A DNA stretch of 33,877 nucleotides from Nitrospirota bacterium (GTDB taxonomy: Bacteria > Nitrospirota > UBA9217): contig JAJXTW010000005.1 in the NCBI GenBank assembly GCA_021783455.1, positions 1 to 33,877 of the forward strand. Reading direction: 5' to 3'. A program made the position numbers and the translations under genes. A model generated the notes under the pieces. That model was not told the origin of the DNA, ran no database searches, and worked only from the letters and a program-made list of their open reading frames with translations. The number at the start of each line of letters is the position of its first letter. The stretch's first letter is position 1. Shown here one piece after another: positions 5,946-29,995 of the stretch.

Positions 5946-5962
5946 AGGGAGAAGAAAATGAG

Positions 5963-6022
5963 CAGCTCATCGCTCGTAGTAAAATCCTTTGCTATGAACT
6001 ACGAACTACCAGCGACGAGCTG
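5963..6022. repeat. intergenic hairpin with heptamer-phased right arm
   Basis: CAGCTCATCGCTCGTAGT at 5963-5980 pairs with ACTACCAGCGACGAGCTG at 6005-6022 with two mismatches. The right side steps in 7-nt units (ATGAACT, ACGAACT, ACCAGCG, ACGAGCT). It lies between the Rcp1-like receiver gene and the giant kinase gene, inside what looks like one operon. An mRNA stability or processing role is therefore as plausible as termination. No U-run follows on the minus strand. Confidence 0.6.
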
Positions 6023-6030
6023 ATTTTACG

Positions 6031-6462
6031 TCACGGCGCTTCATTCAATACGAGCCAGTACAACCCCAGCTGGCGCACGGCCTCCGCGAACTGGTTGAAG
6101 TCCACGGGTTTTCTGATGTAGCTGTTCGCGCCCAGCTTGTAGCTCTCGACCCGGTCACGGTCCTCGCTCGACGTCGTGAGCACCACGACGGGAAGGAGCT
6201 TTGTCCGTTCGTCTCCGCGTATGCGATGGAGCACTTCGAGCCCGTCCATCCTGGGCATCTTGAGGTCCAGCAGGATGACCTGGGGCAATATGTTGGTGTC
6301 GCGGCCGGCGTACTTGCCGGTCCCGGAAAGGTAATCCAAAGCCTCGACGCCGTCCTGGGCCACGACCACTTCGTTCAGGATGTTGCTTTTCTTGAGGGCC
6401 CGGAGCGTAAGCTGCACGTCGTCGGGGTTGTCCTCGGCTAAAAGAATGATTTTGGTTTTCAT
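6031..6462 (-). CDS. single-domain response regulator, Rcp1/CheY-like
   Basis: This stand-alone receiver has 143 residues and no output domain. The acidic pair E10/D11, the phospho-acceptor D66 in [11 protein letters not shown], the conserved T in VVVLTTSSE and the K in IRKPVDF are all present. The [16 protein letters not shown] and SYIRKPVDF signatures are typical of Rcp1-type regulators that partner phytochrome-like kinases, and the kinase directly upstream has that type of H-box. The start at 6462 is set by AGGAGG about 6 nt upstream. An in-frame extension to 6489 has no such site. It probably shuttles phosphate from the upstream membrane kinase toward the downstream receiver-kinase. This order is inferred from gene arrangement. 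Confidence 0.93.
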
Positions 6463-6481
6463 GAAGCCTCCTGAAAAATAG

Positions 6482-6509
6482 AGTTCCAAGTCCCGGGTTT
6501 CAAGTTTCT
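6482..6509. repeat. short heptamer-phased tract
   Basis: Four 7-nt units (AGTTCCA, AGTCCCG, GGTTTCA, AGTTTCT) span the stop codon of the membrane kinase and the spacer before the receiver gene. The centre CCCGGG makes it partly self-complementary. This is a small member of the dispersed class. Confidence 0.4.
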
Positions 6510-9500
6510 ACCCCAGCGTAAAATACACCGTCGTTCCCTTATCCACCTCGGCCTCAATCCAGACCTGCCCGCCGTGGCGGTTGATGATGCGCTTGATCGT
6601 GGCCAAGCCGATGCCGGTGCCGGGAAATTCCTCAGTTTTGTGCAGGCGCTGAAAGGGACTGAACAGTTTGCCGGCATAGTTCATGTCGAACCCCACGCCG
6701 TTGTCCTTTACGAAGAATACCCTGGCATGATCCCTCTGCGTAACACCGAATTCTATCACAGTCCTCGGCGTTTTTTCACTAAATTTCCACGCGTTCGAAA
6801 AAATGTTTTCAAGCGCCACGGCCAGGAGCCGTGCGTCGCCGTAGACCGTCAGGTTTTCTGCAATGGCGAATGCGGCAGCGCGGTCCGGGGACCGATTCAC
6901 CAGGTTGTCGGCGATCGTGCGCGCTATTTTGCTCAGGTCCACCTGTTCCTGATTCATTTCGCTGCGTGTCACGCGGGACAGTTTCAGCAAGTCGTCGATC
7001 AAATGCCCCATCCGCATGGTGGCGCTCCGGATGCGCGCAAGGTAGTCTTCGCCCTGGTCGTCCAGTTTGCCGGCATAGTCCTCAAGAAGAGCGAGGCTGA
7101 ACCCGTCGATGCTTCTGAGCGGAGACCTCAGATCGTGGGACACGGAGTACGCAAAGGCTTCCAGCTCCTTGTTTGCGGCTTCGAGCTCGGCCGTGCGTTC
7201 GACCACGCGCGTTTCGAGCTGCCTGTTTAGGGTGCGGATTTCCTCTTCCGCCTTTTTCCGTTCCGTGACATCCCGGGCCGCGGCGAATACGCCGAGGGCG
7301 TTGCCCGCCATGTCGCGGTACACAGCGGCATTGTAAAGTACCGGAGTGAGGTGACCATCCACACGCCGGATCTCAAGAGCATAGTCCATAACCGAGCCTT
7401 CCTGGAAAACACGTTGATATCCCGCTTTGGCCTTCTCCGGTTCCGTAAAGTAATCGGAAAAATCCGTGCCTACCAGCTCTGTGCGGGAGCATCCGGTCGC
7501 CTTCTCCGTACCGGCGTTTACGTCAGTGATCTTGCCGTTCGCGTCGATGGTCACCAGGGGGTCGAGACTCGCCTCAAGCAGGCTCCGGTTGTAGGCGTTC
7601 GCCAGTTTTAATTTTTCCTCGGCTTGCCTGCGCTCCACGATTTTCCAGACTGAGTCCATCAGGAGCGTCATCTGGCTGACGTCCCGGTCCGTGTATTCGG
7701 CGGGCCTGTTGGCAAAGCCCACGACCGCAACGATGCGTCCTTCGCTGAAAACCGGCACGCTGAAAAAACGAAACAACGGAGCGTGCCCTTCGGGGTAGCC
7801 TTTCTTTAAAGGGTGAGGAGCGGAAAAATCATTTACGATAATGGGCTTGCGCTGCCGTACCACTTCGCCCCAGATGCCGGTTTTTTCAAGATGGTAATTG
7901 GTCTGCGGGTCAGCCACGGTGCATTCGGCCATGACATCCTTTGACCATGCATGAAGGACAAACTCCCGTGAATCCTCATGATAGAAATAGAGATAGCCGA
8001 ATTTACTGCCGGTCAGCGCAATCGCCTCATGAAGCGCAAGATCCAGCAGGTCCCCTAATGATGCCGCGGCGTACTGTGAAATTTTTACGATGCTGTTTTT
8101 GCGTACTTCGTCCAGCCTGGTGATCTCCTCCGCGCGCTTGCGCTCGGTGATATCGCGGGCGGCGGCAAAGACACCGATGACGTTTCCGGACTCGTCGCGA
8201 TAGAGCGACGCATTGTACAGGACGGAGGTAAAATGGCCGTCCTTGTGCTTGATTTCAAGCGGGTAGTCTTTGACCGAACTTTCCCGGAACGCCTGCTGGT
8301 ATCCGGCGCGCGCTTTGTGCGGCTCCGTAAAATAATCGGAAAAGTCCGTCCCGATCAGTTCTTCCCGGGAGCGCCCGGTGACGGCCTGCGTGGCAATGTT
8401 TACGTCCGTGATCTTGCCCGTCGCGTCGATGGTCACCAGCGGATCGAGGCTCGCCTCAATGAGGCTCCGGTTGTAGGCGTTCGCCAGCCGAAGGGCTTCC
8501 GTCTGCTTGCGCTCGGTAACGTCCCGGAAGGCCCCGAGCACCTTCACGGTGCGGCCATCTTTGCGCACGACCTTTCCAACTGCTTCCACCCAGATCATCC
8601 GGCCCTTGGCCGTGATCAGTTGCAACTCCAGCAAAAATTCTTTCCCCTGTCCAATGGCCTCCGTGACCGCGGCGCTGATGACCGGTACGCTCTCCGGCGC
8701 GTAGAAAGCAATGGCTGATTCAACGGTCGGGGTGTACTCGGACGGCGACGTTTCGTGGATCCGGTAGGTTTCGTCCGTCCAATAGAGGGTGTTTTCCACC
8801 GGGTCCAGTTCCCATCCTCCGACGCGGGCTATTGACTGAGTCTCCTCGAGAAGAGTGGCGATTCGCCTTAACTCTTCTTCCACCTTCGTGCGCTCATCGA
8901 TCTCTTTTTCAAGAGAGACATAGGACCCGTGCAATTTTGCGGTCATGGCATTGAACGCTTCCGAAAGCACGGCAAACTCGTCGTCGCCGGTGACATCGAT
9001 CCGGTGGCCGAGGTTTCCTTCTCCGATGACCAAGGCGCCGTTCGTGAGCCTTTTGATGCGATCGGTTATCGTCCTGACCAGGGTCCATGAATTGATGATA
9101 GCTGCCGAGGTTAAGACTACAAGCACGCAAAGGATGCCCCAGCCGGACATCCTGAGGGACAATAACAATCGCCTGCTCGCCGATTCCTGCAACCGGTGCG
9201 CATCCAATATTGCATTCTGTCTTCTCATGGTCAGTTGGCTGTTCAGTCTGTCTTCTATCTCCTGCGAGAGTACGGGGTCCGGCCGCGGCTTTTCCCTGTT
9301 CTCCACGATGCTTGAAAAAAGTTTCCCGATCGACGCCTGATCTTTGGCCATCCTGTCCAGAACTGTTCTGTCCTCACCATCCCTGAATATTCCCGAAGCG
9401 GACTTCAGCAGCAGGCCGATCTGCTCATGTTTGGCAAACCATTGCACTCGCGCCCTTTCGTTCGTAGACAGCATATAATCGTTTCTAAATTCGCTCCGTT

Positions 9501-10727: not shown

Positions 10728-10784
10728 GTTGCAGGCTTCAGCCTGAAACAGGAGGACCGGCGCCGAGGTGTGAGCAGATGCTCA
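10728..10784. repeat. REP-like palindromes before the binding-protein gene
   Basis: GTTGCAGGCT (10728-10737) and AGCCTGAAAC (10740-10749) form a 10-bp stem with one mismatch around a 2-nt loop. A second small palindrome, TGAGCA-GA-TGCTCA, lies at 10771-10784 and overlaps the stop of the truncated kinase. The compact GC stem resembles REP-type intergenic elements. No other copy is visible in the window. Confidence 0.45.
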
Positions 10785-11624
10785 GTTCCCTGATTTTGCC
10801 TTACCGTTGCATATTTTCAGAGGCAGACATGCTTCCAGCCCTTTTAGAATGCATGGATATCTTGAAATCAGTATCGAACAGGAGTGCACGAAAAATGAAT
10901 TCCTGCTGTCAGCCCCATGGATCGAATAGAGCTCGAAGTGGTATCGCTCTAAAAGCGCTTCCAGCATGTCTGCCAGGTCGTCGATGAGGCGTGTCATCTT
11001 CTCGGAACTGTTTCGTATGCGGGTCAGATAGTCCTTGCCCTGATCATCCAGCTTTTCCGCGTAGTCCTCCATCATGATCCTGGAGAACCCGGACATGCTG
11101 CGAAGCGGCGCGCGCAGATCGTGGGAAATGGAATAGTTGAAGGCTTCGAGCTCTTTATTGAGCGCCTCAAGCTCCGGGTTCCGCGCGGCCATGTCTTCGC
11201 TCATTTTGAGGTTCCGGAAGAGAAGGCTGGAAGGCTCAACGATGCCGGTGATGGCAAGGGCGCGATAGATGAGCACCATGGAGGCAAGCAGGAAGAAGTG
11301 GCCGATCATGTTGGCAAGGCCGAAGACGCTCACATACTCGGTGAAGGCACGTTCCGAAGCGATGGAGGCGGCTATCGCTCCCGCCATCATGCCGAATACG
11401 GCGCCGTCGAAGGATCGGCGGTTCGCTATCAGAAGGCCGAGACCGGCGACGAAGATGAGCGCGATGACATATTCGCTGTTGATCTTGAATGGGGTCAACC
11501 CCGGGCCTTCGACGACGAGGTAACTGGAGAGGCTGCTGGCGTAGAGGCCGGATATGATCAGGATGCCTAGCAGAGTCGGGAGGGCGTAGCGCGGAAAATG
11601 GGACTGTACAAGAAATCGGCTCAT
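10782..11624 (-). pseudogene. MASE3-HisKA kinase fragment lacking both ends
   Basis: The open frame encodes 280 residues. Residues 1-130 match only the C-terminal half of a MASE3 membrane sensor (VEGPGLTPFKINSEY, FTEYVSVFGLANMIGH, IYRALAITG, SLLFRNLK) with three to four TM helices. A HisKA dimerisation domain follows, with H168 in ISHDLRAPLRS, very like that of the 1047-residue kinase. Homology stops after RLIDDLA. The remaining ~65 residues look like read-through of non-coding DNA, and no HATPase exists. The first half of MASE3 is also absent upstream, where 11631-11679 is repeat. The ATG at 11624 has no clear ribosome binding site. This is most likely a decayed kinase. A functional phosphate-accepting membrane dimeriser is the alternative, and an intact promoter precedes it. 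Confidence 0.65.
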
Positions 11625-11630
11625 TATATG

Positions 11631-11679
11631 GTTTGAAGTTTCAAGTCTGAGTCTCGAATCTGAAGTCTCAGGTCTCAAG
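11631..11679. repeat. heptamer tandem tract, seven units
   Basis: Seven degenerate 7-nt units run in direct repeat (GTTTGAA, GTTTCAA, GTCTGAG, TCTCGAA, TCTGAAG, TCTCAGG, TCTCAAG). The tract lies immediately upstream of the truncated kinase and would be in its 5' leader. It is a clear example of the dispersed class. Confidence 0.7.
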
Positions 11680-11797
11680 ACAAATTGCCGCAAGTCGACT
11701 GCGAACCAAAACTGTTTCGTGAAATAAAAACCGCCTCTTTTTTACGTGGTGTGTAATCTTGATCGGAATAATCGGCGAGCAAGTTGGTATTGTGACA

Positions 11798-13979: not shown

Positions 13980-14408
13980 TTATTTGCACGAGAACGGCGC
14001 TTTACGGTCTTTTGCCGCAAATCTCGCATAGTGGGGTGACGTAAAGATGTCCATCAGCATGTGCCTGCTTATCACCCCCACATATTTTTTGTCCTTCACG
14101 ACCAGGACGATGGAACAGCAACTCTTGAGCAGCAGATTGATGAGTTCCTTTGTCGGGGTGTCGGCATCGGCGACGATAGGCGCCGGCACCATGATCGCTG
14201 AGGCCGGAATGCAGTCCAGGTCCCGTTCCTCCCGGATCGCGTCCAGAATGGCGTTTTCCGATACAACACCCAGGATCTCCCGGGCGTCGTCCACAACCGG
14301 CATCGCGGCAAGTCCCGATGAAATGATCTTCATCGTCACCTCCCGGGCCGTGGTGTCCGGTCCGACACTGATTTTCTCCCTCATGATATGCCAAGCACTG
14401 ATCCCCAT
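13980..14408 (-). CDS. CBS-domain pair protein
   Basis: This 142-residue cytoplasmic protein is made of two CBS domains (about 8-65 and 75-130) and little else. Each shows the usual pattern: AWHIMREKISVGPDTTAREV...MPVVDDAREILGVVSE, then IMVPAPIVADADTPTKELI...VVKDKKYVGVISRH. Bateman modules of this kind bind adenine nucleotides and regulate a partner protein. No partner is fused or obvious next door. GGGGG lies about 7 nt before the ATG. The C-terminus is short and basic. The role stays unspecified. Confidence 0.9.
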   Translation of the reverse strand: MGISAWHIMREKISVGPDTTAREVTMKIISSGLAAMPVVDDAREILGVVSENAILDAIREERDLDCIPASAIMVPAPIVADADTPTKELINLLLKSCCSIVLVVKDKKYVGVISRHMLMDIFTSPHYARFAAKDRKAPFSCK

Positions 14409-14518: not shown

Positions 14519-15259
14519 TTACCGTCTCTCCCACTGGTGCGTATCGGGATTGAACGCCTCGCTGAAGGCCGTGACTTCCTCCTTCAGCCCCGTTTCATAT
14601 CCCTCATTCAGGCCGAAGTTCACGAGCATCTTGATCGACCGGAGTGAAGAAAGGCTGTTGCTCCCGATCCTGATCGCGAGGCGGTTCGCTTCCTCCTCGA
14701 GCTGGTCGGCTGGTACGATCTCGTTGATCAGGCCGATCCTGAGCGCTTCCTCAGCATACACCGTCCGTCCCGTAAAAAGAAGCTCTTTTGCGCGGCCCAC
14801 GCCCACGGTCTTGTACAGCCTCTGTGATGAACCGAAGATCGGCGGCACGCCGAACTGTGCTTCGGGAAACGAAAAGACCGCGTCCGAAGCCGCGATCCTG
14901 ATGTCCGCGGCAAGTGCGAGCCCGAGGCCCGCGCCTGTTGTCTCTCCCTTGACCGCGGCGATCACCGGGACCGGGAGGTTTTCGATGTTCCGGAGGAGGT
15001 GATAGCCCACGTCGGCGAAATGGCCCGCTTCGTCCTTCGACATTTTAACGAATCCGGCATAGTCCATGCCTGCCGAGAAGTTCCTGCCCTTTGCGGCAAG
15101 CACGACAACGCGGAGTTCGGCCTGGGACGCGAGAATTTCGCTCACGATCTTGTTGAGTTGCGACAGCACCTCTTTGCTCAGATGATTATCGGGGTGATTA
15201 TCGATGGTGACGGTGCTGATCCAATCTTTGTATTCAATGCCGACTGATGCGGTGGACAT
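14519..15259 (-). CDS. enoyl-CoA hydratase/isomerase (crotonase) family protein
   Basis: This 246-residue protein has a crotonase fold. The oxyanion-hole loops are visible as GRNFSAGMDYAGF and VKGETTGAGLGLALAADIRI, followed by the PEAQFGVPP segment. The first catalytic glutamate of classical enoyl-CoA hydratase, in the GGG(C)E position, is replaced here by Gly (GAGLGLALAAD). The second glutamate (FPEAQFG) is kept. Simple water addition to enoyl-CoA is therefore uncertain; isomerase, decarboxylase or hydrolase-type chemistry on an acyl-CoA is possible. GAGGAGG lies 8 nt before the ATG. No beta-oxidation partner genes are adjacent. Confidence 0.88.
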   Translation of the reverse strand: MSTASVGIEYKDWISTVTIDNHPDNHLSKEVLSQLNKIVSEILASQAELRVVVLAAKGRNFSAGMDYAGFVKMSKDEAGHFADVGYHLLRNIENLPVPVIAAVKGETTGAGLGLALAADIRIAASDAVFSFPEAQFGVPPIFGSSQRLYKTVGVGRAKELLFTGRTVYAEEALRIGLINEIVPADQLEEEANRLAIRIGSNSLSSLRSIKMLVNFGLNEGYETGLKEEVTAFSEAFNPDTHQWERR

Positions 15260-15360: not shown

Positions 15361-18300
15361 CTATGCATTCTCCCAGTTTCTCTTCTCTACCATATAGTAG
15401 AACAGGGGGACCACCACCAGCGTCAGGGCCGTGGACGCCAGCATCCCGAAGATGAGCGCCAGGGCCAGGCCCGACCAGACCGGGTCTGCCACGATAACGG
15501 CTGAGCCCAGAATGGCGGCCGCTGCCGTAAGCACGATGGGCCGGGTCCGGATGGCGCCTGCCTCGATCAGGGCCTGTTCGAGCGGCATGCCTTCCTGTTT
15601 CTTGTCCAGGATGAATTCGAGCAGGACGATCGAGTTCCTGACCACGATCCCGGCCAGGGCGATCACGCCGATCATCGAGGTCGCGCTGAAATACACGCCG
15701 GTCACGGCAAAGCCCGGCATGATGCCGATCATCGAGAGCGGGATCGACGCCATGATGACGAGCGGGATCGTGAAGGACCGGAACCGGCCGACGAGCAGAA
15801 GATAGATCGCGATCAAAGCGACGCCCATGGCAGCGCCCAGGTCGCGGAACACATCAAGCGTCAGCTTCATTTCTCCATCCCACTTGACAGTATAACCCTT
15901 GGGCAGCGGATGTTTCCAGAGATGCTTCATCATGTCGATCACTGCATAGACCTGGCTGCGGTCGCCCATTTCTCCGTAGACATAGGTCACGGGCTGAAGA
16001 TTCTTGTGATAAACGGCCCGGTCCATCTCCGCGGGCACGATCTTGACGAGCGACGAGAGCGGAACCTGGCTGCCTTGCTGACTGGTAAGGTAGATTTTGT
16101 CCATGTCCGAAAGGCCGCTCCGGTCCCCTTTGGGCAGGCGCAGCATGATGGCGACAGGGGTCCTGGCTTCGGGCCGGTGCAGCGTGGAGATCGCCATGCC
16201 GGCCACGGAAAGCCGGAGGGTCTGGACGACCTGCTCCGTTGAAACGCCCATGAGCGCCGCTTTTTCCTTGTCCACGATCAGCTGGTACTTGTCCTGTTTC
16301 TCCTTCACGCTGTCGTCGATGTCCACGACCTGGTCCGTCTTTGCAAAGAGCGCTTTCATGTCTCCGGCGATCTCGCGTTGTTTCGCATAGTCCGGGCCGT
16401 AGATCTCCGCTACGACGGTGGCGCGCACCGGAGGGCCCGGCGGGTCTTCGACGAGCTTGATGTTCGCGCCGTATTCCTGCGCGAGCCTTGCGATATCCGG
16501 CCGGATCTTGAGCACGATCTTCTCGCTTGAGATGGACCGCTCTTTCTTATCGATGAGGTTCACCCGGATGTCCGCGAAGTGGCTTGCTTCCCTGAATGCG
16601 CCGCCGCGCAAAAGGCCGTTAAAGTCCATGACCGATCCGGTGCCGACAAAGGTCTCGTAATCCTTTACCTCGGGGATGCGCCGGATGTAGTCGCCCACGG
16701 CGCGCGCGACCCGGTCCGTGTTCTCGATCACCGTACCCACCGGCATGTCGATGGTCACGAGGAACGTGTTCTTGTTCGCCTTGGGCAGCATGCGGAACTT
16801 CACCCACTGGAACAGGGGGAAGCTCATGGTGATAATAAAGGCCGTCATGATGATTGCAAGAAAGGCCCTCCGTTTAGCCGGGTTTTGCAGCAGCGGCTCA
16901 AGGACTTTTTTATACATGCGGTAAATCTTCGTCTCCTCAAGAGAGGGAGCCGCCTCATGGTGGTCCGATTTCATCAGCCGGTAGCTCGCCCAGGGCGTCA
17001 CGATAAAGGCGACAAAAAGCGACGTGATCATCGCAACCGGCACGTTAAAAGGTATCGGCTTCATGTAGGAGCCCATCATGCCCGTCACAAAGGCCATGGG
17101 AATGAAGGCCAGCACCACGGTGATGGTCGCCAGGATCGTGGGCATGCCGATCTCGTTCACGGCGAGGATGGCGCCCTGCAGCCGTGAGTGCTGCTGGAGC
17201 TTATAGTGGCGGTGAATATTTTCGACCACCACGATCGCGTCGTCGACCAGAAGGCCGAGCGACAGGATCAATGCAAAGAGCGTGATCCGGTTGATGGTCT
17301 GGCCTGCCAGCATTCCCACGGCAAGAGTGATAAAGAGCGTGAGCGGGATGGCCAGCGCCACGATGGCGGCCTCACGCCAACCCAGGGTAAAGTACAGCAG
17401 GACGATGACGACGAGGATAGATACGATCAGGTGGAACACCAGCTCGTTCACCGCATCGTTCGCGGTTTTCCCGTCGTTCCGGGTGACGGTCACGGTAATG
17501 CCTGACGGGATCTCCGTCTTTTTCAGTTCATCGAGCTTCTTAAGGATCTGGTCCGAGATCTTTACGGCATTCAGTTTCTGGCGTTTTGCCAATGCAACGG
17601 TCACGGCCGGAAGTTCGCCGCCAAAATGGTCCGCACCTGCAACGACACCATGATTGCCGAGATTATTGGTAAAGGCGATGCGGGTAAGCTTCACCGTTTC
17701 TTCAAACCCGTCGGTCACGTCGGCCACGTCGCCGAGATACACGGGCTTGTTGTTCGCAACTCCCACCACGGCGTTTTTCACGTCCTCGGCTTTTTCAAAG
17801 AACCCGCCGGTTTCGAGAACGAGCTTCTTGCTGCCCTGTTCGAGGTCGCCGGAGATGAGGTTCGCATTCGACATGTTGATGGCGCCCGCGATCTGAAGCG
17901 GCGAGAGTCCGTAGCCGGCGATGCGGAGGGGGTCGAGGGTCACCCGCACCTGGCGGCTCCTGCCGCCGATGATCGCGGTGTTGCCCACGCCGGGAACTTT
18001 TCGGAGTTCGTCGAGCACGTGGTCGGCAACGACCTTAAGCTGCGCGTCATCGTAATTCGTGCCCGGTGCGCCCGAGAGCGTGATAGCCACGATCGGCACA
18101 TCATCGACATCGATGGGCTTCACCAGCGGCTGGGACGCGCCGGGAGGAGCAAAGTCCATATTGGACATGATCTTGTCGTACAGCTTCACCATGGACCGTT
18201 CTTTATCCTGGCCCACGTAAAACTTGACCGTGACCACGGACATCGAGTTCATCGAAACGGAGTACACGTCCTCGACGCCCGGGATCTCCCAGAGCTTTGC

Positions 18301-18519
18301 CTCGAGCGGTTTGGACACGAGCTCCTCGACTTCCTTGGCCGAGGCGCCGGGCATCATGACCATCACGTTCGCAGCAGGCACCACGATCTGCGGGTTCTCT
18401 TCCCGGGGGGTGAACCAGAGGGCGAAGAGCCCCAGGAGCGCCGTGGCTGCCATGAGCAGCACGGTGAGTTGTGAGTTGATGAAGTATTGAGTGATTTTAC
18501 CGCTGATGTTAAGTTTCAT
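15361..18519 (-). CDS. RND efflux transporter permease (AcrB/MdtB-type)
   Basis: This 1052-residue inner-membrane proton antiporter has the length and layout of the AcrB superfamily: TM1 near 15-35, a large periplasmic loop, a block of TM helices from about 340 to 560, a second large loop and a C-terminal TM block. LLVDDAIVVVENIHRH keeps the paired Asp of the proton relay in TM4, and GGxSRQVRVTLDP, PxxxATITVVLAFIPMAFV and IGVIALAGIVVRNSIVLLEF are family landmarks. It lacks the methionine clusters expected of a CusA-type metal pump that I could recognise, so the substrate is open. It is last in the operon rhodanese-TolC-adaptor-permease and would form the tripartite pump with the two preceding products. 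Confidence 0.95.
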   Translation of the reverse strand: MKLNISGKITQYFINSQLTVLLMAATALLGLFALWFTPREENPQIVVPAANVMVMMPGASAKEVEELVSKPLEAKLWEIPGVEDVYSVSMNSMSVVTVKFYVGQDKERSMVKLYDKIMSNMDFAPPGASQPLVKPIDVDDVPIVAITLSGAPGTNYDDAQLKVVADHVLDELRKVPGVGNTAIIGGRSRQVRVTLDPLRIAGYGLSPLQIAGAINMSNANLISGDLEQGSKKLVLETGGFFEKAEDVKNAVVGVANNKPVYLGDVADVTDGFEETVKLTRIAFTNNLGNHGVVAGADHFGGELPAVTVALAKRQKLNAVKISDQILKKLDELKKTEIPSGITVTVTRNDGKTANDAVNELVFHLIVSILVVIVLLYFTLGWREAAIVALAIPLTLFITLAVGMLAGQTINRITLFALILSLGLLVDDAIVVVENIHRHYKLQQHSRLQGAILAVNEIGMPTILATITVVLAFIPMAFVTGMMGSYMKPIPFNVPVAMITSLFVAFIVTPWASYRLMKSDHHEAAPSLEETKIYRMYKKVLEPLLQNPAKRRAFLAIIMTAFIITMSFPLFQWVKFRMLPKANKNTFLVTIDMPVGTVIENTDRVARAVGDYIRRIPEVKDYETFVGTGSVMDFNGLLRGGAFREASHFADIRVNLIDKKERSISSEKIVLKIRPDIARLAQEYGANIKLVEDPPGPPVRATVVAEIYGPDYAKQREIAGDMKALFAKTDQVVDIDDSVKEKQDKYQLIVDKEKAALMGVSTEQVVQTLRLSVAGMAISTLHRPEARTPVAIMLRLPKGDRSGLSDMDKIYLTSQQGSQVPLSSLVKIVPAEMDRAVYHKNLQPVTYVYGEMGDRSQVYAVIDMMKHLWKHPLPKGYTVKWDGEMKLTLDVFRDLGAAMGVALIAIYLLLVGRFRSFTIPLVIMASIPLSMIGIMPGFAVTGVYFSATSMIGVIALAGIVVRNSIVLLEFILDKKQEGMPLEQALIEAGAIRTRPIVLTAAAAILGSAVIVADPVWSGLALALIFGMLASTALTLVVVPLFYYMVEKRNWENA

Positions 18520-18613: not shown

Positions 18614-19708
18614 TCAGTTCAGGTTTTGCGCAACAATGACTTTCCTGCCGTCGATGCCGGCAGCCTGCTTGCTCACGATCACCTTGTCGCCGGCTTTTAA
18701 GCCCGTCACCGCTTCGACGGCATCGCCCTGCTCTTCGCCGAGTTGGACCATCTGGAACACGGCGTTCCCGTCAGCGGACACGATGTAGACGCCCGAAAGT
18801 CCGGACAGGGTGACGACGGCAGAACGGGGGACGAGGATCGCGTCACGCTTGCCTGCGGTGAAAAGGGCCTTGCCGTACATACCGGTGATCAACCCCTTGT
18901 TGACCGGGATGTCGATCTTGACCACGAAGGAGTGGGTCCGCATATCGGCTGCGGGGACCACCTGCGCTATCCGGGCATCGATGTCTTTGCCGGGCATGGC
19001 GTCAATCCTGACCGTGACTCGCTTGCCCGGTTCCACGAACCGGAGGTCCTGTTCCCTCACCGTCACTTCGAGCCGGAGGTTCTTGTTGTCTTCGATCTTC
19101 AGGGCCGGCTGGCCCGGCAGCGCCATCTCCCCAAGGTTGATTTTTTTCTCCATGATCTGGCCGGTGATCGGCGCGGTGATGACAGTGTAGCTTTCCATGG
19201 CCTTTGCAGCGTTCAGGCCTGCTTTTGCTGATTCGAGGCCGAGGGTTGCCTGGTCCATCTCCATCTGCGTGGCCGCCTGCTCGTCAAAGAGGCTTTTGAT
19301 CCGGTCATACTGGAGTTTTGCGTTGTTATACGCGGCCTGGGCCTGGTACGCTTGCGCGGCGATCTCGCCGCTCTCTATTTTAAGAAGCAGTTTGCCCTTG
19401 GTCACCTGATCCCCCTCGTTCACGGTGAGGGCCACCACCTTGCCCATGACCTTGCTTGAGAGCACCGAGGTATTTTTTGAATTGAGCGTCCCGGCAACCG
19501 ATATGACAGCATCGATGCTCCTGGGTTCGATCGTAACAGCAGAGACCTGGACCGGAACTTCAGCCTTCGGAACGGCGGCGTAACTGTTCTCTTTGCCGAA
19601 GGTCATGTACCCGATGCCGAGTATTGCCAGTGTAAAGGCAAGGGATGCGCTGTATATGGTTTTCTTGTTCATATTCTTTATTTTTTCTAGTATGCTTTTG
19701 CTGTTCAT
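18614..19708 (-). CDS. RND periplasmic adaptor (membrane fusion protein)
   Basis: This 364-residue protein has an N-terminal membrane anchor (about 17-36, SASLAFTLAILGIGYMTFG). Next come a lipoyl/barrel-sandwich hybrid half (VAGTLNSKNTSVLSSKVMGKVVALTVNEGDQVTKGKLLLKIES), an alpha-helical hairpin rich in Ala/Gln (AAQAYQAQAAYNNAKLQYDRIKSL), the second lipoyl half, and beta-barrel/MP domains. It bridges the inner-membrane permease and the TolC channel. The start at 19708 is fixed by AAGGAG about 7 nt upstream. A longer in-frame start at 19744 lacks this. It sits between tolC-like and permease genes, each spacer holding a phased repeat. Confidence 0.94.
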   Translation of the reverse strand: MNSKSILEKIKNMNKKTIYSASLAFTLAILGIGYMTFGKENSYAAVPKAEVPVQVSAVTIEPRSIDAVISVAGTLNSKNTSVLSSKVMGKVVALTVNEGDQVTKGKLLLKIESGEIAAQAYQAQAAYNNAKLQYDRIKSLFDEQAATQMEMDQATLGLESAKAGLNAAKAMESYTVITAPITGQIMEKKINLGEMALPGQPALKIEDNKNLRLEVTVREQDLRFVEPGKRVTVRIDAMPGKDIDARIAQVVPAADMRTHSFVVKIDIPVNKGLITGMYGKALFTAGKRDAILVPRSAVVTLSGLSGVYIVSADGNAVFQMVQLGEEQGDAVEAVTGLKAGDKVIVSKQAAGIDGRKVIVAQNLN

Positions 19709-19730
19709 GATGATCTCCTTAATAATCATA

Positions 19731-19813
19731 GGGTCATGGGTCACGTGTCAAGGTAGGGAGCCATAACCGCGAGCCGTTCTATGGTTGTACTCTGTACCCG
19801 GCACTTTGTATTA
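19731..19813. repeat. heptamer-phased element between adaptor and TolC-like genes
   Basis: GGGTCAT, GGGTCAC, GTGTCAA, GGTAGGG (19731-19758) are followed at 19786-19813 by TGTACTC, TGTACCC, GGCACTT, TGTATTA. Complementarity between the arms is only partial. It lies within the efflux operon. Confidence 0.55.
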
Positions 19814-19818
19814 CTGTT

Positions 19819-21177
19819 TTACAATGTTCCCACTGCCAGCTTCAATTCCGCCTGGGCGATGTTGTTGTCGTAAAGGGCCTGGAGCGCGTTCGTCCTCGCT
19901 CGGATGAGAGAACTCTCGGCGCCGAGCACGTCGACAAAGGTCGTCATGCCCGTTTCGTACCGTTTCTGCACGATCCGCAGACCTTCTTCGGCTTCCTGCA
20001 CCGAGGAGGCAGATGCCGCTATCCGGTCGAGGGACGCTGTCACGTTGTAGTATGCCTGCCTGACCTGGAGCTGGACCGCAGATTTTTGCTGGTCTTCCAT
20101 GGATCTCATCCTTGTGCTTGTTGCGAGCGCTTCCTTTACTTTCGACCGGGTGACGAGCCCGTCGAAGAGGTTCCACTGGACCATTGCCATCACGGCCCAG
20201 CTTTTTGCATCGTCTCCCGCGGGCTTGTCGCTGTTCCAGTCCACCTGGCCCATGACGTTCAGGCTCGGGAGATAATCGGCGCGCGCCATGGACACGGATT
20301 TGTCGGCGTTCTTCCGGTTCATTTCCATGGACAAAAGGTCCGGCCGTTTGGACGACGCCTCGTCGAGCATGGCGTTCAGGTCTGTTTTCATGTCCTGCGT
20401 CGTAAGCGCTCCGGACACGTCATACTCGGCGCCCTGCGGAACGCCCATGGCAAAATTGAGCGCCGCTGTCGAGAGTTTCACGCCGTTCTCGGCGCGTGTC
20501 AGCATTTCCTTCACTTCGGCCAGCTGCACCTTCGCCCGGAGCAGGTCCGACTGGAGCACTGCGCCCGCCTTGTACCGGGCCTCGGCGAGTTTCACGTTCG
20601 CTTCGCTCGTTTCAAGCGACTGGAGCGCAACCTGGTTGTATTCCCTGGCAAGCAGCAGCCCGTAGTAGGCCTTGATCACGTTGTAGATTGTTTCCTGCTT
20701 TGCCCGTTCGCGGTCCTGGAGAGACGCCTCCTTTGCGAGCTTTGCCTGGCTCCTGCCGATGTATTCCTTGCCCCCGTTAAATATCGGTTGCGTGACCGAG
20801 AGCCTCGTGTTGTAGTTCGAGACGGTCTCGGGATTATTTATGACCGCGGGGTTGAAATCAGCCGGCGTAATGATCTCCTGGTTCAGCTTTGTCCCGAGCG
20901 CCATAAGCGGGTTGTCGGTCCTGCTCCAGGTCTCGGAGACCGCTACTTTGGGCAGAAAACCCGATTTTGACCTGAGGATACCCGCGTCGGCGGCCTCGAT
21001 CTGCGCATCTGCCGCCTTGAGGCCGGGATTATTGTCCAGCGCCGTGCTGATTGCCTGCTCAAGCGTCAGCGGTTCCGCGGCGTAGCTGTAGTCAGCCACG
21101 AGGAACGTCAGCGCCAGGACAAGAATAAGGTAACAGCCGTATACCGTGATTTTGCATTTCACGGATTTTGTTTTCAT
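19819..21177 (-). CDS. TolC-family outer-membrane efflux channel
   Basis: This 452-residue product has a signal peptide cleaved probably after DYSYA (about residue 33), followed by two OEP repeats. TLEQAISTALDNNPGLKAADAQIEAADAGILRSKSGFLPKVAV and the second-half MARADYLPSLNVMGQVDW are typical alpha/beta barrel landmarks, and long heptad-rich helices follow each. It would form the trimeric outer-membrane exit duct for the adaptor and RND permease encoded next. The ATG at 21177 is chosen because it gives the signal peptide. It lies only 5 nt after the rhodanese stop with a weak ribosome binding site, so translational coupling to rhodanese is likely. Upstream in-frame codons read through the rhodanese gene and are not real. 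Confidence 0.94.
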   Translation of the reverse strand: MKTKSVKCKITVYGCYLILVLALTFLVADYSYAAEPLTLEQAISTALDNNPGLKAADAQIEAADAGILRSKSGFLPKVAVSETWSRTDNPLMALGTKLNQEIITPADFNPAVINNPETVSNYNTRLSVTQPIFNGGKEYIGRSQAKLAKEASLQDRERAKQETIYNVIKAYYGLLLAREYNQVALQSLETSEANVKLAEARYKAGAVLQSDLLRAKVQLAEVKEMLTRAENGVKLSTAALNFAMGVPQGAEYDVSGALTTQDMKTDLNAMLDEASSKRPDLLSMEMNRKNADKSVSMARADYLPSLNVMGQVDWNSDKPAGDDAKSWAVMAMVQWNLFDGLVTRSKVKEALATSTRMRSMEDQQKSAVQLQVRQAYYNVTASLDRIAASASSVQEAEEGLRIVQKRYETGMTTFVDVLGAESSLIRARTNALQALYDNNIAQAELKLAVGTL

Positions 21178-21182
21178 GTGTG

Positions 21183-21518
21183 CTAGGCTTTCGCCAGAGA
21201 AGCAGTTCGTGCCATATTCCATAATACGATCCCGCCTTCGAGATTTTTTACCTTGTACCCCATGCGCGAAAGATGTGAGCAGGCATAGGCGCTTCTGTTT
21301 CCGACCTTGCAGTAGACCACGATCTCCTTGTTCTTGGGAAGCTCCTCCATGCGGTAGCCGAGTTCCTGGAGCGGGAGCAGATAGGAGCCTTTGATGGCCT
21401 GCGCAGCATGCTCCTGGGGAGTGCGTACATCGAGCAGGAGAAAATCCTCTCCGGTAGTCATTTTTTGGTGCAGTTCTTCGGGCCCGATGTTCTTGCATCC
21501 ATTCGTGTTGAAAAACAT
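21183..21518 (-). CDS. rhodanese-like sulfurtransferase
   Basis: This single-domain rhodanese has 111 residues and no signal peptide, so it is cytoplasmic. The active-site loop is C70-KVGNRS, and the N-terminal DVRTPQEHAAQAIKGSYLLP and C-terminal LEGGIVLWN motifs are intact. It would carry a persulfide on C70. AAGGAGG lies 9 nt before the ATG. It is the first gene of the operon that continues with TolC, adaptor and RND permease, 5 nt before the TolC-like start. That link between a sulfurtransferase and an efflux pump is unusual. It may act in sulfur or oxyanion detoxification, or the association may be regulatory only. Confidence 0.92.
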   Translation of the reverse strand: MFFNTNGCKNIGPEELHQKMTTGEDFLLLDVRTPQEHAAQAIKGSYLLPLQELGYRMEELPKNKEIVVYCKVGNRSAYACSHLSRMGYKVKNLEGGIVLWNMARTASLAKA

Positions 21519-21599
21519 GTTGCTGTCCTCCTTACTTTCCCCTGGTCATCCCCCGGCCTCTTGAAACATTGTCATGCTTTGCAGTTTGTAAAGAAGCTC

Positions 21600-21670
21600 G
21601 AACAATGGACACTGCCAGGGGTATTCCTTCGGGGTAGGAAGGAGAGGGGGATTGACAGTGCCCATTGTTC
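21600..21670 (-). promoter_or_regulatory. long leader hairpin upstream of the rhodanese-efflux operon
   Basis: GAACAATGGACACTGCCA (21600-21617) and TGACAGTGCCCATTGTTC (21653-21670) form an 18-bp stem with two mismatches around a 35-nt loop. With the sigma-54-type promoter at 21688-21705, the stem would lie at the very 5' end of the mRNA, about 80 nt before the rhodanese start. No U-run follows, so stabilising or regulating the leader is likelier than termination. Confidence 0.6.
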
Positions 21671-21687
21671 ATGCTTTGCTCTTCATA

Positions 21688-21705
21688 TTACAATGTCCGT
21701 GCCAA
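21688..21705 (-). promoter_or_regulatory. sigma-54-type (-24/-12) promoter for the rhodanese-efflux operon
   Basis: The minus strand reads TTGGCACGGACATTGTAA. Known consensus for sigma-54 promoters is TTGGCACG-N4-TTGCA. The -24 half is perfect and the spacing correct; the -12 half has TTGTA instead of TTGCA. Two sigma-54 activators are encoded in this window. The start site would be near 21679. Confidence 0.6.
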
Positions 21706-21775
21706 AACAAAATATGTTGTTTTTACAGCATGTTATTATATGCGCTGATTGCCGCGGAGATTTAAGCGGAAAATT

Positions 21776-21882
21776 TTGTCGAATGGGACAACGGGCCAAT
21801 TATGACCAACCTGTTGATTTGGTTTGTTTTATGACAATCGACATATTTGTCCCCTTGATCATGTTTTACCGGATTGTTTGTC
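21776..21882. promoter_or_regulatory. cluster of TTGTC/GACAA half-sites, possible enhancer
   Basis: Five half-sites occur in 107 bp: TTGTC-N6-GACAA (21776-21791), GACAA-N9-TTGTC (21833-21851) and a further TTGTC (21878-21882). TTGTCGAA occurs twice. The cluster is about 70-190 bp upstream of the sigma-54-type promoter, the usual place for enhancer-binding protein sites, in an AT-rich spacer that encodes nothing recognisable. Confidence 0.4.
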
Positions 21883-21947: not shown

Positions 21948-21976
21948 TTGAACCGGCCCCTGCTTTGTGTTAAATT
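21948..21976 (+). promoter_or_regulatory. sigma-70-type promoter for the TPR protein gene
   Basis: TTGAAC (21948-21953), a 17-nt spacer and TAAATT (21971-21976) are seen 28 nt before the ATG at 22004. The -10 lies inside the palindrome at 21966-21983, so a protein bound there would block the promoter. Confidence 0.5.
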
Positions 21977-21983
21977 TGACACA
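21966..21983. promoter_or_regulatory. 18-bp palindromic operator-like site
   Basis: TGTGTTAAATTTGACACA is symmetric except for one base pair, with TGTGT/ACACA arms and an AAATTT core. It overlaps the -10 of the plus-strand promoter. This is the expected layout for repression. The regulator is not known. Confidence 0.5.
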
Positions 21984-22003: not shown

Positions 22004-22564
22004 ATGAGAAAAAGACTACTGTCTCTCACGCTGTTTGCTGCCATTGGTCTTTCGATTGCCTATGCGGAACAGCCTGCTTCCCAAGAGTACACCCGGGCGA
22101 ACAAGTTGTTCTCCCAATCGAGATATTCCGAAGCACTTCCCCTCTATCAACGATTATCGAGCACCCACACCAGTAACGTACCGTCCGGCACTCTCTCTCA
22201 GCGGATCGGAGACTGTTTTTTTCAACTCGGGAACTATCAGAACGCGATCGATGCATACCGTTCCGCTTTAAAGAACCAAAAACGCGCTGAACAGGCTGCG
22301 ACCCAGTACTGGATCGGGTTCAGTACCTTTCTGCTCGGCAACGATGCCGAGGCTGCGGCGGAATTTCTGAAAATCCCGGAACGCTATCCGGAATCGGGCA
22401 TGTGGGTCAGCACGGCATACTACTGGGCCGGGAGAGCCTGCGAGCGCATGGGTAAAAAAGAATTGGCAGCTGCCGACTATCGCAAGGCCGGAGGAAAAGG
22501 AACGTCGTTACAGGAGCGCTTTGCGCTGAAGAAGGCGGAAACGGCAAAAAAAGAGGCCAGGTGA
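22004..22564 (+). CDS. periplasmic tetratricopeptide-repeat protein
   Basis: This 186-residue product has a Sec signal peptide (MRKRLLSLTLFAAIGLSIAYA, about 1-21). The rest is built of TPR-like helical pairs: EYTRANKLFSQSRYSEALPLYQRL, LSQRIGDCFFQLGNYQNAIDAYRSAL, QAATQYWIGFSTFLLGNDAEAAAEF and AYYWAGRACERMGKKELAAADYRKA. This pattern resembles the C-terminal TPR of CpoB/YbgF and the BamD-type outer-membrane assembly proteins, but there is no lipobox and no Tol genes are adjacent. It is probably a periplasmic scaffold. It is the first plus-strand gene, with its own promoter and operator-like site, and is followed by recN. Confidence 0.85.
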   Translation: MRKRLLSLTLFAAIGLSIAYAEQPASQEYTRANKLFSQSRYSEALPLYQRLSSTHTSNVPSGTLSQRIGDCFFQLGNYQNAIDAYRSALKNQKRAEQAATQYWIGFSTFLLGNDAEAAAEFLKIPERYPESGMWVSTAYYWAGRACERMGKKELAAADYRKAGGKGTSLQERFALKKAETAKKEAR

Positions 22565-22569
22565 AAAAA

Positions 22570-22629
22570 GGGGACAGGATCCAGTAGGCAGGGTCCAGGA
22601 AAGCGTGTCCCTGAACCCTGTCCCCCGGA
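22570..22629. repeat. heptamer-phased intergenic hairpin before recN
   Basis: GGGGACA, GGATCCA, GTAGGCA, GGGTCCA lead into GTGTCCC, TGAACCC, TGTCCCC. GGGGACAGG (22570-22578) and CCTGTCCCC (22617-22625) are exact complements. It occupies almost all of the spacer between the TPR gene and recN. Confidence 0.7.
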
Positions 22630-22644
22630 CCCGGAAGTTTGGTC

Positions 22645-24345
22645 ATGTTAAAAGAACTGAATATAAAAAATTTCGCCATCATCGATCAACTCCGCGTAGA
22701 GTTTGCCCCGGGGCTGAACGTGTTCACCGGCGAGACCGGTGCGGGCAAGTCCATCGTAGTCGACGCCCTGAACCTCGCGCTGGGCGAGCGCGCGAGCGCC
22801 GACCTCATCCGCACCGGATGCCAGGAAGCGGTCGTGGAGGCCGCCTTCGAACTGAACGGCAGGGGCACGAAGGAGATCATGACCCTCCTCTCTGACCAGG
22901 GAATCGAAGCGATTTCCGGAGAAGACCTGATCGTACGCCGGGTCCTGTCCGCGTCGGGCAAGAACAAGGTGTATATCAACGGGAGCCTGGCGAATCTCAC
23001 GACGCTGTCGGCCCTTGGCGCGAATCTTGCGGACATCCACGGCCAGCATGAACATCAGTCCCTTCTTGCCCTCGATCGCCAGATGGACATGCTCGACTCC
23101 TTTGGCGGGCTCGAAAGTATCCGGGAGGCGGTTTCGCAGTCCTATCACCGCCTGCTGGATATAAGAAAGGAACTGGCCGCGCTCGAAACAGGGGAGCGGG
23201 ACCGGGCCCAGCGGGAAGACATGCTCCGGTTCCAGAAGAACGAGATCGAGGCCGCAATGCTCAAGCCCGGCGAGGACGCCGAGCTTGCGAACGAGCAGAA
23301 AGTATTGGCCAATTCGGAGAAGCTGGCGGGTCTCGCCGCCATGGTGGATGAGACCTTGTACGCGGCGGACGCTTCCGTGCTTTCGAATCTGAAAAAGGCG
23401 GTCAACAGCCTGCGGGAAATCGCGGAAATCGACAACAGGCTGTCGGGTCCCGCCCAGCTGTGCGAGTCGGGCCGCGCGCAGATCGAGGAAGCCGCGCGGG
23501 AAGTATCTTCCTACCGGGAGAGCGTGGAGTTTGATCCCAAGCGCCTGGAGGAGCTCGGCGACCGGCTCGACCTCATCCAGAAACTGAAGAAAAAATACGG
23601 CGGCACGATCGGAGAAATCATCCAATTCGGCGCAGAGGCGACGGCCGACCTCGAGCGGATGGAGCGGAGCACCGAGGAGATCGAGCGCCTGAAATCGGAA
23701 ATACAAGCGATCAAGTTCGGGCTGACCGATAAAGCGGAGGAACTGACGAAAAAGCGCGGCGCGGCGGCGCGGGACCTCGAAAAGAAAGTCGAAGCGGAGC
23801 TCGGCCACCTCGGCATGAAGAAGACCGTATTTTCCGTAAAGATCACCCAGGAGCCCGGAGGCGACACGCTTGACGGCCATAAGCTCGGTCCACGCGGCGC
23901 GGACCGCGTGGAATTCCTCATATCGCCGAACCCGGGGGAGGAGCCGAAGCCGCTTGCGAAAACAGCTTCCGGCGGGGAACTCTCTCGCATCATGCTGGCG
24001 CTCAAGACTATTCTTATCGAGGGGGATGAAATCCCCACGCTCGTGTTCGACGAAGTCGATGCGGGCATCGGGGGCGCGGTGGCCGAGGAAGTCGGAAAGA
24101 AGCTCAAACGAATAGCGGCAAAACACCAGGTCTTCTGCATCACCCATTTGCCGCAGATCGCGAGTATGGCCACGAGCCACTACGGCGTGGCAAAATCGAT
24201 AAAGAAGGACCGGACGAGCACCGAGGTGCGGTTGCTCGACGCACAAGAGCGCGTGGACGAGATCGCCCGCATGCTCGGCGGAAAGACCATTACGGATGCG
24301 ACCATCAAACACGCGGAAGAGATGATAGGGCGGGGAAGCGCTTAG
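22645..24345 (+). CDS. recN: DNA repair protein RecN
   Basis: This 566-residue SMC-like ATPase acts in recombinational repair of double-strand breaks. Walker A is GETGAGKS at 29-36. The long central coiled coil runs from about 150 to 370, with the typical hinge-proximal LRFQKNEIEAA motif. The C-terminal half holds the signature ASGGELSRIMLALK (S442) and Walker B with D469/E470 (TLVFDEVDAGIGG), and it ends in CITHLPQIASMA. Length and order fit the family. The start is ATG 22645; an in-frame TTG six bases upstream is less likely. No LexA box was recognised upstream. Confidence 0.97.
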   Translation: MLKELNIKNFAIIDQLRVEFAPGLNVFTGETGAGKSIVVDALNLALGERASADLIRTGCQEAVVEAAFELNGRGTKEIMTLLSDQGIEAISGEDLIVRRVLSASGKNKVYINGSLANLTTLSALGANLADIHGQHEHQSLLALDRQMDMLDSFGGLESIREAVSQSYHRLLDIRKELAALETGERDRAQREDMLRFQKNEIEAAMLKPGEDAELANEQKVLANSEKLAGLAAMVDETLYAADASVLSNLKKAVNSLREIAEIDNRLSGPAQLCESGRAQIEEAAREVSSYRESVEFDPKRLEELGDRLDLIQKLKKKYGGTIGEIIQFGAEATADLERMERSTEEIERLKSEIQAIKFGLTDKAEELTKKRGAAARDLEKKVEAELGHLGMKKTVFSVKITQEPGGDTLDGHKLGPRGADRVEFLISPNPGEEPKPLAKTASGGELSRIMLALKTILIEGDEIPTLVFDEVDAGIGGAVAEEVGKKLKRIAAKHQVFCITHLPQIASMATSHYGVAKSIKKDRTSTEVRLLDAQERVDEIARMLGGKTITDATIKHAEEMIGRGSA

Positions 24346-28609: not shown

Positions 28610-29995
28610 ATGTCCGGCGAAACCATACTCATAGTTGATGATGAAGAAAGCGTCAGGAAGAGCCTTGCCGATGTCATGAAGGACGAGGGCTACGAGGTCG
28701 TGACCGCGTCTTCGGGCAGGGAGGGAATCGATGTGCTTGCCGAGACGCAGCCGTCGCTTGCGTTGCTCGATATCGCCATGCCCGGGATGGACGGCATCGA
28801 GACGCTGCGCAGGATCAGGGAACTCCGGCCCGACCTTCCGGTTATCATGGTCTCGGGTCACGGGACCATCGAGACCGCGGTCAAGACCACGAAGATGGGG
28901 GCCTACGATTTCATCGTAAAGCCGCCTGAACTGCAGCACCTTACGCTCGTAGTGAAACACGGGATCGAGGAAACGCGGCTGCGCGAGGAAAATGCTTCCC
29001 TCAAGCTGAGCATTGAGCGGCGGTATGAGATCGTGGGTGAGAGCGATAAAATAAAGACGCTCAAGCAGCAGATCGGCCTTGCCGGTCCGACGAACGGCTG
29101 GGTGCTGATCCACGGGGAAAGCGGAACCGGGAAGGAGCTTGTTGCCCGCGCTATTCACCGTGCGAGCAGGCGCGCGAACGGGCCTTTTGTGGAGGTTAAC
29201 TGCGCCGCGATCCCGCAGGAGCTTATCGAAAGCGAGCTTTTCGGCCACGAGAGGGGATCCTTTACAGGCGCCACGGGCATGAAGCGCGGGAAGTTCGAAC
29301 TTGCCCACGGCGGGACCATCTTTCTCGACGAGATTGCCGATATGAGCCTTGCGACGCAGGCCAAAGTGCTGCGCGTGCTCGAAGGCCAGGAGTTCCAGCG
29401 CGTGGGAGGCGCCAAGACGCTGAAGGCCGACGTGCGCGTGATCGCGGCATCGAACAAACATCTCGTTGACGAAATCAAACGGGGCACGTTTCGCGAAGAC
29501 CTCTACTACCGCTTGAACGTCATTCCCCTCGACGTGCCGCCCCTTCGCGATCGGCCTGACGACATCCCGCGCCTGGTGCGCCACTTTCTGCAGGAGTTCT
29601 CCGCCGAATACGGCCAGAAGACGAAAACCATGGACGAGGATGCCCTTGCGCTTTTCGTCCGGTATCCCTGGCCGGGAAACGTGCGCGAGCTCCGAAACAT
29701 TATCGAGCGGCTGATGATCATGGTGCCCCGGCCCGCGCTCACGGCGAGCGACGTGCCGCCGCCCATCAGCAACCCGCCCTCGGAGGAGATACTCCGGGAG
29801 GGGCCCGCGATTGCTCCCGTGCGGACCCACGCGGCGACATTAAAAGACGCCCGCGCCGAGTTTGAGCGTGAGTTTATCGCGTATAAGCTCAAGGAGTTCG
29901 GCGGCAACGTGAGCAGGACCGCCGACGCCATCGGCGTGGAGCGCAGCAACCTGCACCGTAAAATCAAGGCGCTGGGAATTGAAGCCGAGGATTGA
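28610..29995 (+). CDS. NtrC-family sigma-54-dependent response regulator, orphan
   Basis: This 461-residue protein begins with a receiver (about 5-120; DDEE at 10-13, phospho-acceptor D54, K in IVKPPE). The AAA+ domain has Walker A GESGTGKE at 169-176. Its sigma-54 contact loop is GSFTGA from 216, where most members have GAFTGA; Walker B is GGTIFLDE. A Fis-type HTH ends the protein (NVSRTADAIGVERSNLHRKIKALGI). The receiver plus HTH resemble NtrX-type regulators more than the first regulator in this window. AAGGA precedes the ATG. No histidine kinase is adjacent; it is followed by an ABC-2 exporter whose ATPase start lies 25 nt after the stop. It may regulate that exporter or genes elsewhere. 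Confidence 0.94.
   Translation: MSGETILIVDDEESVRKSLADVMKDEGYEVVTASSGREGIDVLAETQPSLALLDIAMPGMDGIETLRRIRELRPDLPVIMVSGHGTIETAVKTTKMGAYDFIVKPPELQHLTLVVKHGIEETRLREENASLKLSIERRYEIVGESDKIKTLKQQIGLAGPTNGWVLIHGESGTGKELVARAIHRASRRANGPFVEVNCAAIPQELIESELFGHERGSFTGATGMKRGKFELAHGGTIFLDEIADMSLATQAKVLRVLEGQEFQRVGGAKTLKADVRVIAASNKHLVDEIKRGTFREDLYYRLNVIPLDVPPLRDRPDDIPRLVRHFLQEFSAEYGQKTKTMDEDALALFVRYPWPGNVRELRNIIERLMIMVPRPALTASDVPPPISNPPSEEILREGPAIAPVRTHAATLKDARAEFEREFIAYKLKEFGGNVSRTADAIGVERSNLHRKIKALGIEAED

Follow-up and report, generated by a model that had tools for sequence, protein, structure and literature searches.

A conserved sigma-54-type promoter with candidate enhancer sites and a structured leader RNA ahead of a rhodanese and RND pump operon in Nitrospirota

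HAE-1-type RND pumps are usually placed under local repressors or sigma-70 two-component systems. The stretch of DNA analysed here (33,877 nt of contig JAJXTW010000005.1 of a UBA9217-lineage Nitrospirota bacterium, called the window below) carries an RND operon that begins with a sulfurtransferase and lies behind a sequence resembling a sigma-54 promoter. This arrangement raises the question of whether the operon is under enhancer-dependent control, and which activator and substrate would belong to it. The features of the locus are collected in Table 1. The window's own genome was assessed by pattern counts and its relatives by footprinting of upstream regions, which were aligned from 12 genomes of 7 genera.

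Table 1. Positions of the features discussed, in window coordinates unless a locus is named
Feature	Position	Strand	Basis or remarks
Sigma-54 -24/-12 promoter TTGGCACGGACATTGTAA	21688..21705	-	exact match; TGGC-N7-TTG in 12/12 genomes with assembled locus
Proximal enhancer site, TCGACAAAATTTTCCG on the minus strand	21767..21782	.	proximal TCGACA position; matrix score 19.7
Distal enhancer site, GGGACAAATATGTCGA on the minus strand	21838..21853	.	kept in 12 genomes; matrix score 21.3
Structured leader RNA, ~90 nt	21588..21677	-	folding, pair counts, G-U/A-C asymmetry, covariance-model search
Leader outer stem arms	21676-21653 + 21617-21594	-	folding
Leader inner hairpin	about 21643-21625	-	folding
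Single-domain rhodanese (sulfurtransferase), 111 aa, active-site loop CKVGNRS	21183..21518	-	PF00581
TolC-family outer-membrane channel	19819..21177	-	PF02321, TIGR01844
RND periplasmic adaptor	18614..19744	-	TIGR01730 above cut-off
RND permease, hydrophobe/drug (HAE-1-like), VDDAIVVVEN	15361..18519	-	PF00873
Crotonase/enoyl-CoA hydratase-family protein	14519..15259	-	PF00378; same place in eight relatives
CBS-domain protein, probable last operon gene	13980..14408	-	PF00571; after crotonase in some relatives
Sigma-54 activator response regulator	368-1729	-	sigma-54 domain
Sigma-54 activator response regulator, NtrX-like	28610-29995	+	sigma-54 domain
Small exported LFDT... protein ORFs in relatives	L238:13691-14152, L240:10284-10826, L241:8731-9228		similar in G005, G006

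The initial annotation described an operon that starts with a sulfurtransferase and continues as a tripartite pump, and both the domain matches and the conserved gene order bear this out. Eight relatives keep the order rhodanese-TolC-adaptor-RND-crotonase, and in some the CBS gene comes next. The rhodanese scores above the PF00581 cut-off and carries the CxxGxR loop as CKVGNR, in which Cys70, Gly73 and Arg75 are invariant. Its orthologues reach 57-68% identity in six further genera of the family, and those in two more members of its own genus are 96-97% identical; the genomes that hold them are Nitrospirae/Nitrospirota MAGs, isolate UBA9217 among them. The TolC reading frame as listed (19819-21498) overlaps the rhodanese, and the TolC start is likely the ATG at 21177, 5 nt past the rhodanese stop. 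Where enoyl-CoA hydratase carries its first catalytic glutamate (GGGCEL), the crotonase-family protein reads GAGLGL, so it may be no hydratase.

The permease belongs to the HAE-1 type, being an AcrB-like protein with adaptor and TolC partners and the paired Asp residues of the fourth membrane helix, and its GLLVDDAIVVVEN motif is that of hydrophobe/drug-type RND pumps. Its nearest solved structures are MexK, MdtB and CmeB, with which it shares the permease fold, the fourth-helix VDD motif and the adaptor and TolC partners. It falls far below the NCBIfam multidrug subfamilies (523 bits against a cut-off of 1250), and it also lies below the cut-off for heavy-metal pumps of the CusA/CzcA kind (TIGR00914, 338 bits against 701). 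The motif, the kinship with MexK, MdtB and CmeB and the metal-pump score below cut-off together argue for an organic substrate rather than a metal or an oxyanion. The proposal that the operon exports an oxyanion or other inorganic toxicant is therefore not supported.

The promoter element occurs once in the window without mismatch, with the rhodanese start codon 170 nt downstream. Set beside the consensus YTGGCACG-N4-TTGCW, its sequence TTGGCACG-GACA-TTGTA departs only in a T for C at -12, a base that is A or C in some relatives. The GG-N10-GT spacing is correct for sigma-54 and invariant in the 12 genomes, and the genome encodes its own rpoN (PF04552, E = 4.7e-61 in a profile search). Transcription would start at about 21678. 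The perfect -24 half, correct spacing and near-match -12 that had been read from this site are confirmed at the level of the sequence. The string as such proves little, as the pattern TGGCAC-N5-TTG has 13 sites in the 2.8 Mb of the genome against 21 for a reversed control pattern, a density that would put about 0.16 sites in a stretch as long as the window. The bare promoter string is thus weak evidence and not beyond chance; conservation is what exceeds chance.

In the upstream alignment, TGGC-N7-TTG stands at exact spacing in all 12 genomes while the flanking bases have diverged. One relative (G007) has lost the CAC and gained the -12 C (TGGCTTAAACATTGC). No rhodanese orthologue was found in G002 and G004, where the contigs break beside or inside the RND gene, so both loci were left out of the conservation judgement, and the promoter is accordingly kept wherever the locus is assembled. 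A combined enhancer and promoter pattern is found at the rhodanese operon in 11 of the 14 family genomes, compared with 3 matches in total for the reversed control; G007 escapes it because TGGCTT stands where the pattern requires TGGCAY. Matches of this pattern at L167, L178 and L180 were considered as extra regulon members and rejected, as they look like chance. Conservation of the -24/-12 bases in relatives, which the initial annotation had named as a check on its promoter, thus holds for the core and extends to the enhancers and the gene order.

The nearly complete genome G012 (97%) keeps promoter, enhancers and leader and has no RND permease orthologue; its locus passes from the rhodanese to CBS, the TolC, adaptor and RND genes being absent there. 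This arrangement makes the rhodanese rather than the pump seem the promoter's fixed partner, as far as gene content tells. The G012 locus itself (L234, contig C50, about 3500-7600) runs from promoter and leader through the rhodanese to CBS, LpxL and LplA genes.

Two palindromic sites with the consensus GACAAAATTGTCGA are conserved upstream of the promoter in 12 of 12 genomes, as predicted binding sites of an upstream activator. In every one of them 79-82 bp separate the proximal TCGACA from the -24 GG, and the distal GACAnnnnTGTCGA lies 140, 148-150 or 163-164 bp upstream. These are the two top matrix sites of the window, followed by a next best score of 15.3; since this locus itself contributed to the matrix, the scores express consistency and not independent proof. 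The strict pattern GACARNATTGTCGA has 11 matches in the 14 genomes, 9 at rhodanese/DsrE promoters and 2 elsewhere. Strict-pattern matches at L200 and L204 were weighed as further regulon members and look like chance. The pattern TCGACA-N5-GTC proved too loose as an enhancer search, and an IHF site shared between the two enhancers was discarded, since its consensus match is confined to the window's own genus. Conservation of the -24/-12 bases, of the two activator sites with their almost constant spacing and of the gene order together lends strong support to the suggested enhancer-dependent control of the operon.

A second target was found in G009 and G011, which carry the same enhancer pair and -24/-12 element ahead of a DsrE-family gene (PF02635). 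Three other DsrE orthologues are without the enhancer pair, so this evidence is supporting and not family-wide. Judged by the DsrE co-target, the regulon may deal with sulfur that is protein-bound or reactive. Of the sulfur-linked toxicant that had been envisaged, the link to sulfur is strengthened somewhat by this target in two genera, and the toxicant part is unsupported.

The best-conserved intergenic block outside the window's own genus, as seen in a DNA search, runs from the promoter into a leader RNA. In the upstream alignment the -12 base and the start of the leader stem are 18-21 nt apart, which puts the stem no more than about 10 nt from the predicted transcription start. The outer stem has 18 pairs, with 98.9% of cells paired, and folding across relatives usually gives an inner hairpin, and the loops are C-rich. 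Of the 12 loci, 11 have the leader; the exception is G006, which keeps the promoter, so the leader is not essential everywhere. Classical covariation, with both partners of a pair changed, is modest: it is seen at 2 pairs of the stem (3 cells), a pair count that 122 of 500 shuffles reach. The strongest argument is strand asymmetry: the stem cells contain 25 G-U over 9 pairs and 0 A-C on the transcribed strand (sign test over 9 pairs, p = 0.002, phylogeny ignored). This asymmetry indicates that the transcribed RNA, and not a palindrome in the DNA, is under selection. Searched with a covariance model, 11 of the 14 family genomes show the leader in a single place, which is the rhodanese locus each time, and outside those loci 396 genomes of the phylum give one weak match (36.8 bits, in G145). 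No Rfam family reaches its gathering threshold in the window, where only generic hairpins appear below threshold. The leader is a previously uncatalogued RNA and the most novel element of the locus, and it was missed by the initial annotation.

Several functions of the leader were considered. A leader peptide from the ATG in the 5' stem was rejected, as from genus to genus this short frame stands in varying phase to the 3' arm and to the rhodanese ATG, so that conservation falls on the helix and not on a peptide. The idea that the leader sequesters the ribosome-binding site was rejected too: the genera disagree in their predicted pairing, no common switch emerges, and a switch at translation is disfavoured by the variable distance from hairpin to start codon. 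Attenuation or a separate small RNA is possible, given the U-rich tail that some genera have. We tentatively suggest, as a conjecture that may well fail, that the leader represents a regulatory RNA of a new class, produced only upon sigma-54 firing, an attenuator or small RNA with C-rich loops that is co-conserved with a sulfur-linked rhodanese/DsrE/RND-pump regulon exporting a thiolated organic compound.

Two other readings of these elements have to be weighed. The -24/-12 resemblance could be fortuitous and the operon driven from a sigma-70 promoter with a local repressor on the palindromes, as the lack of genome-wide enrichment of the promoter pattern would allow. This is very improbable: the core is invariant at exact spacing where its neighbours have diverged, the palindromes at about 80 and 150 bp upstream are placed as is typical of activators and do not overlap the start, and a scan of the promoter region gave no good sigma-70 match, and none above chance, near the predicted start. 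The inverted repeat of the leader could likewise be a DNA operator or the remnant of a mobile element rather than a functional RNA. It is indeed a palindrome at the DNA level with a strongly conserved sequence, yet its standard non-Watson-Crick cells are exclusively of the G-U kind on the transcribed strand, and the covariance model scores 104 bits on the sense strand against 38 on the opposite one. A mobile repeat is further contradicted by a single copy per genome, always at the rhodanese locus, and we regard either origin as decidedly unlikely.

The identity of the activator is a separate matter. The window encodes two candidates, as had been stated, both response regulators with sigma-54 domains, one with a GAFTGA and the other with a GSFTGA loop. 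The NtrX-like protein could regulate the rhodanese operon, since it has orthologues at 72-80% identity in most relatives and bears the GSFTGA/GAFTGA loop, and the enhancer sites contain CAA-N2-TTG, presumably compatible with reported NtrX sites. This assignment is doubtful, as no above-threshold orthologue exists in G001 (96% complete) and G013 (85%), which keep the enhancer sites, as its gene is not beside the operon in any relative whose locus was examined, and as no strong matching site lies near it. The other activator has no orthologue in G010 (100% complete) or G006 (97%), where the sites are likewise kept. A matrix scan of the window found no strong enhancer-like site at either activator gene, and a motif search for GAFTGA-like loops found no activator beside the operon in the relatives whose locus was examined. 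The notion that sensing runs through the window's phosphorelay is not supported, as neither activator fully co-occurs with the sites and neither gene bears a strong one. The window also holds a MASE3 sensor kinase reading frame (10782-11693, minus strand) with a HisKA domain and no ATPase domain match, which may be truncated.

On its other side, the promoter region adjoins a divergent pair of TPR and SMC-like genes (22004-24345, plus strand) with its own palindromic promoter TTGTGTTAAATTTGACACA at 21964-21983. Promoters of this type are conserved ahead of orthologous TPR-SMC pairs elsewhere in G004, G005, G006 and G013, and the pair also occurs in G002. The TPR gene was rejected as part of the rhodanese system; it forms a unit apart, has a conserved promoter of its own and adjoins the operon only in the genus of the window. 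Several relatives have a different small exported protein divergent from the operon (LFDT..., TPR-like where scanned). The neighbour therefore changes and the promoter region stays.

Taken together, the locus very probably has a genuine sigma-54-dependent, enhancer-activated promoter that drives a rhodanese/TolC/adaptor/drug-type RND/crotonase operon, with CBS in some genomes, behind a leader RNA. The two TTGTCGA palindromes, placed about 80 and 140-164 bp upstream, are probably bound by an AAA+ activator of the Fis type, which would open the promoter upon a signal. A single transcript would then begin within about 10 nt of the ~90-nt hairpin leader and carry the rhodanese, TolC, adaptor, permease and crotonase genes and, in some genomes, that of the CBS protein. 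For the leader, the likeliest role is to adjust expression as an RNA, through 5'-end protection, attenuation or release of a short RNA, and the pump may remove an organic, possibly thiolated, compound.

Parts of this arrangement are found in known systems. The phage-shock operon pspABCDE is controlled by sigma-54 and PspF, and its rhodanese PspE is expressed from an enhancer-dependent promoter, as here; it differs in having no pump and other enhancer sites, and PspE models score far below their cut-off on the rhodanese of the window (38.8 bits against 102). In Pseudomonas putida, the RND-type efflux operon PP2810-13 is CbrB/sigma-N-dependent, so that sigma-54 control of an RND-type pump already has a published precedent (PMC6296734). 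As described in the available part of that report, it resembles the present locus in its tripartite pump operon, sigma-54 promoter and upstream activator sites, and differs in its activator sites and unrelated phylum; that part mentions neither a rhodanese lead gene nor a conserved leader hairpin. RND, efflux and rhodanese are unmentioned in the sigma-54 regulome paper of D. vulgaris (PMC4641369), as are RND, rhodanese and Nitrospirota in a 2025 cross-phylum sigma-54 survey (PMC12316311). UBA9217-class Nitrospirota are described as mainly sulfate reducers of the subsurface (PMC11033732, PMC10203281). The genomes studied here probably belong to that class, judging from the isolate name UBA9217 among the orthologues, so a sulfur-linked stress response would be ecologically sensible in them.

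RND pumps are usually discussed as repressor-controlled, and the operon described here is a conserved, very probably enhancer-dependent case from a deep uncultured branch of its phylum. It places a pump and a sulfurtransferase behind one promoter, with candidate activator sites mapped and an uncatalogued structured leader. The concrete sites, the RNA and the two-gene sulfur-linked regulon offer a route to the activator and to the exported compound.
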